Source: Bifidobacterium sp. ESL0728
GTDB lineage: Bacteria; Actinomycetota; Actinomycetes; Actinomycetales; Bifidobacteriaceae
DNA: 64,000 nt
Direction of reading: 5' to 3'
Assembly: GCF_029392015.1 (NCBI RefSeq)
Contig: NZ_CP113925.1
Span: 1,302,001 to 1,366,000, forward strand
Part shown: positions 18,620 to 19,690 of the stretch, piece by piece
How positions within the stretch are numbered: the first letter of the stretch is position 1
Layout of the letters: each line of letters starts with the position of its first letter
The notes under the pieces: model-generated
Told to the model about the DNA's origin: nothing
The model's input: only the letters and a program-made list of their open reading frames with translations
Database searches by the model: none
Position numbers and translations under genes: made by a program

Positions 18620-18967
18620 ATGGCGGAACGCAGCCTGCGCGGTATGAGCATCGGAGCCAAGTCACTCGAATCCGATGAAAATGTTGATTTTGCAGCGAGA
18701 ACTGATGTGGCATATGTATGCCCGAAGGGTCACCGTACAATTTTGCCGTTCGCTGAAGGCGCTGAGGTTCCGGATGAATGGGAATGCCGTTGCGGTGAGA
18801 TCGCCAAACGCGAAGACGCCGATCCCGACGAAATCGACGAAATCAAGAAACCAACGCGTACGCATTGGGACATGCTCATGGAGCGTCGTACCGAAGATGA
18901 GCTCAAGGAACTGCTTGACAAGAGGCTCAAGATGCATCGCGAAGGTTGGTTCCCGGATTACGAGTAA
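18620..18967 (+). CDS. rbpA: RNA polymerase-binding protein RbpA
   Basis: Actinobacterial transcription factor that binds the principal sigma factor and RNA polymerase and helps open promoters. The 115 residues have the RbpA pattern: N-terminal tail (MAERSLRGMSIGAKSLESD), the core with YVCPKGH...WECRCG (possible zinc ligands, Cys/His), a basic linker and the sigma-interacting helix THWDMLMERRTEDELKELL near the C-terminus. AAGGAG lies well placed before the ATG. It has its own terminator, so it is probably a single-gene unit. Confidence 0.97.
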   Translation: MAERSLRGMSIGAKSLESDENVDFAARTDVAYVCPKGHRTILPFAEGAEVPDEWECRCGEIAKREDADPDEIDEIKKPTRTHWDMLMERRTEDELKELLDKRLKMHREGWFPDYE

Positions 18968-19004
18968 TTGAATCCGGTTCGGTTCGCCATAACGAGTTAT
19001 ACAA

Positions 19005-19045
19005 AACGGTGGTTGCTCGATTTTCTTCGAGTGGTCACCGTTTTT
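19005..19045 (+). terminator. Terminator of rbpA
   Basis: AACGGTG..CTCGA (19005-19020) pairs with TCGAG..CACCGTT (19027-19042), followed by TTTT. Confidence 0.8.
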
Positions 19046-19287
19046 CGTATGGGAAATTTTTTGGTTGTGTTTCTTAGGATCGTGCTGAGAAAAGTTGGTA
19101 AATACGAAGACTATGAGAAATACTTGACCGGCAATGGATTATTAATGTAGCTGCAATTTTTTAGTTGCGTGATTCTCAACGTTGATCTCTTAGAATCGAT
19201 CTGAGAGAATTTTAGGGAAAATATCACTCTATACCTCATGATTTGCATATGACTGGTAACCAAGAATAAGTGTTTATCCGATAATGT
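19046..19287. other. Gene-free lead-in to the hairpin array
   Basis: AT-rich DNA with no supportable gene; the 60-codon frame ending at 19150 has no ribosome site and crosses the rbpA terminator. Confidence 0.5.
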
Positions 19288-19690
19288 ACGTTATGTCAGA
19301 TTTCTTTGAAATCTGACATAACGTCACCTCGTTATATACCAAGCTGCGCTTGCTTACATAACGAGGTGCCCCACTTACGGCACTAAGAAAAATCTGACAT
19401 AACGTCGCTACGTTATATACCCAAGCTATGCTTGACTTACATAACGTAGCGCCCCCATTACTGCACTAAGAGAATCTTGACATAACGTTTCGTGATTATA
19501 TACTCAAGCTGCGCTTGGCTTACATAATTACTCACGGTCGCCGCCATTACTAGTTTGAGAAAATCCTGACACATATTCTTACTCGTTATATACTCAAAGA
19601 AAGCCTGGCTTAGATAACGCCGCGCTCACGGTTGCCAGACACGTTATCTATAACCAAGCTCTATTGCTTACATAAACTTGGTCTCTCGCA
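19288..19690. repeat. Tandem array of about five hairpin units with compensating base changes
   Basis: It opens with a perfect 17-base inverted repeat (19288-19304 and 19308-19324, loop TTT). Units of roughly 70-90 bases follow, each beginning near CTGACATAACGT (19313, 19394, 19477, 19566, about 19636). Unit A pairs 19325-19335 with 19358-19368. Unit B pairs 19406-19416 with 19441-19451. Unit C pairs 19491-19499 with 19524-19536, with a four-base bulge. Inside each is CAAGC-NNN-GCTTG (19340-19352, 19422-19434, 19505-19517). A and B differ at three stem positions, and all three changes keep pairing. Units D and E are degenerate. Strand and function are unknown. Confidence 0.85.

Follow-up and report, generated by a model that had tools for sequence, protein, structure and literature searches.

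dif and the hairpins downstream of rbpA

The region described here lies in a 64,000-nt stretch of the Bifidobacterium sp. ESL0728 chromosome (NZ_CP113925.1, 1,302,001-1,366,000), referred to below as the window, whose positions are used throughout. The hairpin region is intergenic and lies 3' of rbpA, and an earlier note on this DNA was correct in describing a gene-free setting after that gene. A separate inverted repeat also follows rbpA, at 19003-19044, outside the array. The features are:

18620-18967, + strand: rbpA, the context gene upstream (Pfam PF13397, E 7e-40)
19274-19301, + strand: chromosomal dif, with XerC arm 19274-19284 (TTATCCGATAA), central region 19285-19290 (TGTACG) and XerD arm 19291-19301 (TTATGTCAGAT)
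19288-19324, no strand: hairpin H1, formed by 19288-19304 (the XerD arm of dif with half of the central region) and its inverted copy D' (19308-19324); a 17-bp perfect inverted repeat with a loop of 3
19325-19368, no strand: unit A with hairpin H2; the outer stem is CACCTCG/CGAGGTG, the arms are D'' (TTATATA) and D''' (TACATAA), and CAAGC-TGC-GCTTG forms the inner hairpin
19390-19451, no strand: unit B, D' at 19390-19405 and H2 at 19406-19451 (covariance model 44 bits)
19473-19535, no strand: unit C, D' at 19473-19488 and a bulged H2 at 19489-19535 (covariance model 30.4 bits)
19566-19625, no strand: unit D, decayed, core arms at 19584-19619 (covariance model 14.7 bits)
19640-19684, no strand: unit E, strongly decayed, 2 of 7 outer pairs remaining

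Few bacterial sites are as conserved as dif, which is usually viewed as 28 bp standing alone. The sequence at 19274-19301 (TTATCCGATAATGTACGTTATGTCAGAT) is the chromosomal dif of ESL0728. It is a single match within the window (0 in 100 shuffles), has the 28-bp layout of XerC arm, 6-bp centre and XerD arm, and lies near the terminus, at 1.321 of 2.591 Mb (51 per cent of the chromosome). The site is conserved in 108 of 112 genomes of the genus (query positions 24-53), and the proposed dif of Frankia, CACGCCGATAATGCACATTATGTCAAGT (PMC3025954), closely resembles it. The genome encodes XerD (a TIGR02225 match above cut-off) and a XerC-like protein scoring just under the XerC cut-off. Five tyrosine recombinases were located in total, two of which were classified, both as Xer.

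The hairpin array begins inside dif, with the XerD arm of dif forming one side of H1. The earlier note had started the feature at 19288 and had not recognised the first hairpin (19288-19324) as one half of dif joined to an inverted copy of that half; the true start of the feature is 19274, and dif is the key to its identity. The tandem units with nested hairpins that it described are present at 19288-19684, where folding goes far beyond that of shuffles. Units A-E are 80-90 bases each, hold no genes and have none between them, and their decay grows with distance from dif. The unit plan consists of D' (an inverted XerD arm together with 3 bp from the centre of dif), a spacer of 10 bp, D'', and then D''' across a hairpin. 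The pairing partner of D' in the first unit is dif's own XerD arm. D'' begins exactly 10 bp after D' and pairs with D''' across the inner hairpin, forming H2.

The outer stems of unit A (CACCTCGTTATATA/TACATAACGAGGTG, 19325-19368) and unit B (CGCTACGTTATATA/TACATAACGTAGCG, 19406-19451) are both perfect over 11 bp. They differ at three pairs, each of them compensated, just as the earlier note had reported, and inspection of the stems agreed with its account of unit C as bulged with the stem kept and of D and E as decayed. The covariance model (R1, see below) matches the unit A region at 19288-19372 with 95.3 bits. The ten-base arm TTATGTCAGA has four copies in the ESL0728 genome, three of these in dif, unit A and unit B.

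Near-consensus promoter hexamers occur at 19477-19504 (unit C, TTGACA-16-TATACT) and 19566-19594 (unit D, CTGACA-17-TATACT); they probably arise incidentally from the sequences of the arms. A promoter array was rejected: two promoter-like sites were found, with 2.5 expected from shuffles, and the TTGA part of the unit C hexamers is not kept in relatives. An rbpA terminator was also ruled out, with no terminator-like site in the array, as was a known structured RNA, with no match in Rfam.

XerD-like arms, spacing and covariation

The XerC arm is present solely in dif itself, and the array arms are XerD-like. At 21 of 26 sites, the 3 bp of the central region adjoining the arm are copied exactly in D'; the copying holds at three loci with those bases changed to ATA or ATG, and the five exceptions are single transitions. 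In most species the sequences of D'' and D''' are not identical to that of the dif arm. In a genome from another genus (G560), the XerD arm of dif is TTATGACAAAA; its array, which has 80-bp units, carries arms that are TTATGACAAAA or close to it. By their sequence, the array arms are half-sites for the XerD recombinase, and they are tied to dif. Between D' and D'' the spacer measures 10 bp at 24/26 sites (8 and 12 at the other two), whereas the gap between dif and D' ranges from 7 to 35 across the same 26. Because the spacing is fixed while the loops vary, the pattern suggests that two recombinase protomers may sit on D' and D''.

The arrays are always downstream of dif, on the XerD side. Half-sites per 450 bp average 5.2 on this side and 0.7 upstream, for an array class that was chosen by a count threshold and also took in a few array-less AT-rich loci. 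This concentration, on the XerD side only and following the host's own XerD arm, is what would be expected of the main rival to a folded-DNA Xer site: that the array serves the host in double-stranded form, its extra half-sites holding XerD at the terminus for control of dimer resolution or for SMC unloading. The constant 10-bp spacing also fits a protein pair. Moreover, there is a precedent in B. subtilis, where, according to papers citing the work (PMC10945525, PMC12322038), XerD unloads SMC at terminus sites. Those too are extra XerD sites near the terminus, though as far as the citing papers describe them they differ from the compact hairpin array abutting dif seen here. A palindromic, variable outer stem is not required for double-stranded binding, however, and most genomes of the family, plus one from the bee clade (G025), lack the array. 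We regard a host XerD-binding array as a serious explanation but, on balance, an unlikely one.

Folded as DNA, a 191-base stretch of the array has z = -10.9, and none of 200 shuffles was as stable. Among 20 dif-proximal (first) units, eight pairs have changed on both sides, with a covariation score above all 500 shuffles; slid controls fail. H1 pairing is preserved in relatives as well. For the five variable outer-stem pairs of 22 first units, 100/110 combinations are Watson-Crick (permutation mean 42.6, maximum 69), and the variable positions hold no G.T pairs and two A.C pairs. A selected RNA stem would be expected to show wobble, so the near lack of wobble pairs at variable positions points to DNA rather than RNA.

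The earlier note had left open whether selection acts on the structure as RNA or as extruded DNA. Maintained pairing, in DNA, stands, and the RNA half of that claim does not. A structured non-coding RNA or transcript-level element (a terminator or riboregulator) would account for the stable stem-loops and for the promoter-like hexamers of units C and D. Nevertheless, those hexamers are not above shuffles, the array is without a terminator, no Rfam family matched, the variable positions are nearly free of G.U-type pairs and the arms, as XerD half-sites, follow dif, all of which makes an RNA scarcely credible here. The array is a clear case of strong covariation as a sign of DNA structure.

The two strands are not equivalent. 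A top-strand A.C mismatch is conserved at the same position in 14/20 first units, where the bottom strand has a G.T pair, and the bottom strand folds better than the top in 18/20. Outer pairs are retained at 91 per cent in first units versus 63 per cent in later ones, a difference that speaks for selection, and not template switching alone, as what maintains the dif-proximal unit. A neutral by-product would instead combine inverted duplication of the dif arm, tandem amplification and palindromes kept by template switching in replication, with no selection. Template switching is able to create and maintain perfect stems (PMC8794818), and two-sided simultaneous changes without G.T intermediates are compatible with it. 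Yet later units decay with distance from dif although they share genome and setting with an intact first unit, switching should erase the A.C mismatch that persists in 14/20, and the 10-bp spacing is conserved across genera. A neutral origin of the pattern is in our judgement improbable.

Distribution among relatives and origin of the array

When 85,000 species were scanned for exact matches to dif with an inverted arm after it, only Bifidobacterium gave any; the positives include isolates ESL0682, ESL0763, ESL0784, B. subtile, B. tibiigranuli, B. amazonense and B. simiiventris. The closest array-bearing relatives of ESL0728 are ESL-type Bifidobacterium, strains that we take to be bee-gut isolates. 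A covariance model was built from 20 first units and matched 26 of the 189 Bifidobacteriaceae genomes searched. One match (G062) proved a false positive on inspection, leaving 25 genomes from three genera with the same plan at dif, or about one in eight; the family is thus mostly without the array. The earlier note had proposed such a search of bifidobacterial genomes, and the related arrays that the search found have stem changes that keep pairing, so neither of the two results that the note had named as refuting it was obtained. A pattern search of 396 genomes of the phylum gave no case of the array plan at dif, and the model gave none outside the genus in 396 genomes of the order under strict filters, which lost some known family members too.

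On a XerD tree, which is a gene tree and not a species tree, the array trait requires about nine changes, at least six of them forced by well-supported branches. One genome inside the bee clade, G025, is without the array. For sister species without the array, the flanks are too diverged from array-bearing genomes for informative comparison. Two closely related array-bearing species (G019 and G020; L116, L118) have near-identical DNA, including the hairpins, downstream of dif and unrelated DNA just upstream, and differ in the loop of H1.

B. tibiigranuli (G102 contig 11, L059:9413) carries a second, ectopic dif-like site, TAGCCGATAA-CCAATA-TTATGTCAGAT. A D' matching this site and a decayed H2 accompany it, and it lies between RelB-like and YefM/YoeB-like toxin-antitoxin genes. 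The patchy distribution on the XerD tree, together with this ectopic copy, suggests gain and loss of the array. Two Bifidobacterium genomes each contain two dif-like sites with altered central regions (G016, L047:5064 and L048:5404; G048, L049:5096 and L050:5062), and these pairs are possibly Xer-integrated elements.

No phage, plasmid or viral contig with the unit was found. Phage and plasmid BLAST returned short trivial matches only, and exact-pattern scans of IMG/VR returned no convincing unit. One viral contig (IMGVR_UViG_3300022698_000104, L202:3900-4060, minus strand) has a cluster of TTGACATAAT repeats in a non-coding stretch, resembling actinobacterial XerD half-sites. In a small hand-made set, unit tails have a similarity of 0.60 within genomes versus 0.42 between them, suggesting that units were duplicated locally and not captured repeatedly.

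The patchy distribution and outward decay could also be read as passive, no longer functional scars of lost Xer-integrated prophages, and the architecture is indeed like the left end of a CTX-type prophage. The first unit, however, remains intact in nearly every one of 22 genomes, and we consider such scars very improbable.

A candidate folded-DNA Xer site

The reading we prefer, though tentatively and with slightly less than even confidence, is that the dif-linked array of XerD half-site hairpins acts as DNA: a folded Xer site, most likely derived from Xer-exploiting elements. From the dif identity, half-site identity, spacing, covariation and distribution, all of which the sequences show, we infer folding in vivo, Xer binding, strand exchange and an origin along the following lines. 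With the region single-stranded or extruded, H1 and H2 would fold side by side, a geometry in which the inverted Xer arms are predicted to be able to form a dif-like stem. The folded D'-10 bp-D'' would then form a duplex that Xer can bind, with two loops as caps, comparable to the folded CTX attP and integron attC, and the bottom strand, folding better, would be the active one. XerD, whose strand exchange requires matching bases beside its arm, could pair this folded site with a dif. Having originated in Xer-exploiting elements, the array would still maintain its dif-proximal unit while older units decay outward.

CTX phage integrates as folded single-stranded DNA with a stem that mimics dif; the centre of its attP1 is 12 bp, and exchange depends on homology beside the arm (PMC4246890, PMC4439123). 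The array is like CTX attP(+) and other IMEX sites of Vibrio in its inverted Xer arms at dif, in a dif-like site predicted to form from one folded strand, in its extended central region and in the homology next to the arm. It differs in that the folded stem has XerD-type arms and not the full XerC/XerD pair of CTX-type IMEX, in its tandem units of ~80 bp, in its Gram-positive host, and in having no phage genes and no phage or plasmid carrier among those searched.

In integrons, the recombining form of attC is a bottom-strand hairpin carrying extrahelical bases (PMC2727003), and the array shares with attC sites a bottom-strand hairpin of recombinase arms, variable self-complementary parts and conserved bulges. 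It probably differs from attC in being without cassettes, as no gene lies between its units, and it is tied to dif, with arms that match XerD/dif and not R and L boxes. Plasmid resolution sites of the cer type likewise place about 180 bp of accessory DNA beside an Xer core (PMC5357621), but the cer flank binds ArgR/PepA whereas the array flank repeats Xer arms. The earlier note knew of no described family with this plan, and we found no description of such an array in the open-access literature searched, which is weak evidence of absence.

A broader claim would be that Bifidobacteriaceae carry a family of dif-coupled folded-DNA Xer sites, a Gram-positive class of XerCD hairpin substrate kept by selection and active at the replication terminus. 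We think this doubtful as a whole. A covarying hairpin array fused to dif, seen in several lineages of this family of beneficial gut and bee symbionts, would represent either an XerD-based terminus-organising function or a route for folded single-stranded DNA into Gram-positive chromosomes. Its occurrence in about one in eight relatives suggests an undescribed add-on to the Xer machinery that separates chromosomes, or else traces left by elements exploiting that machinery.
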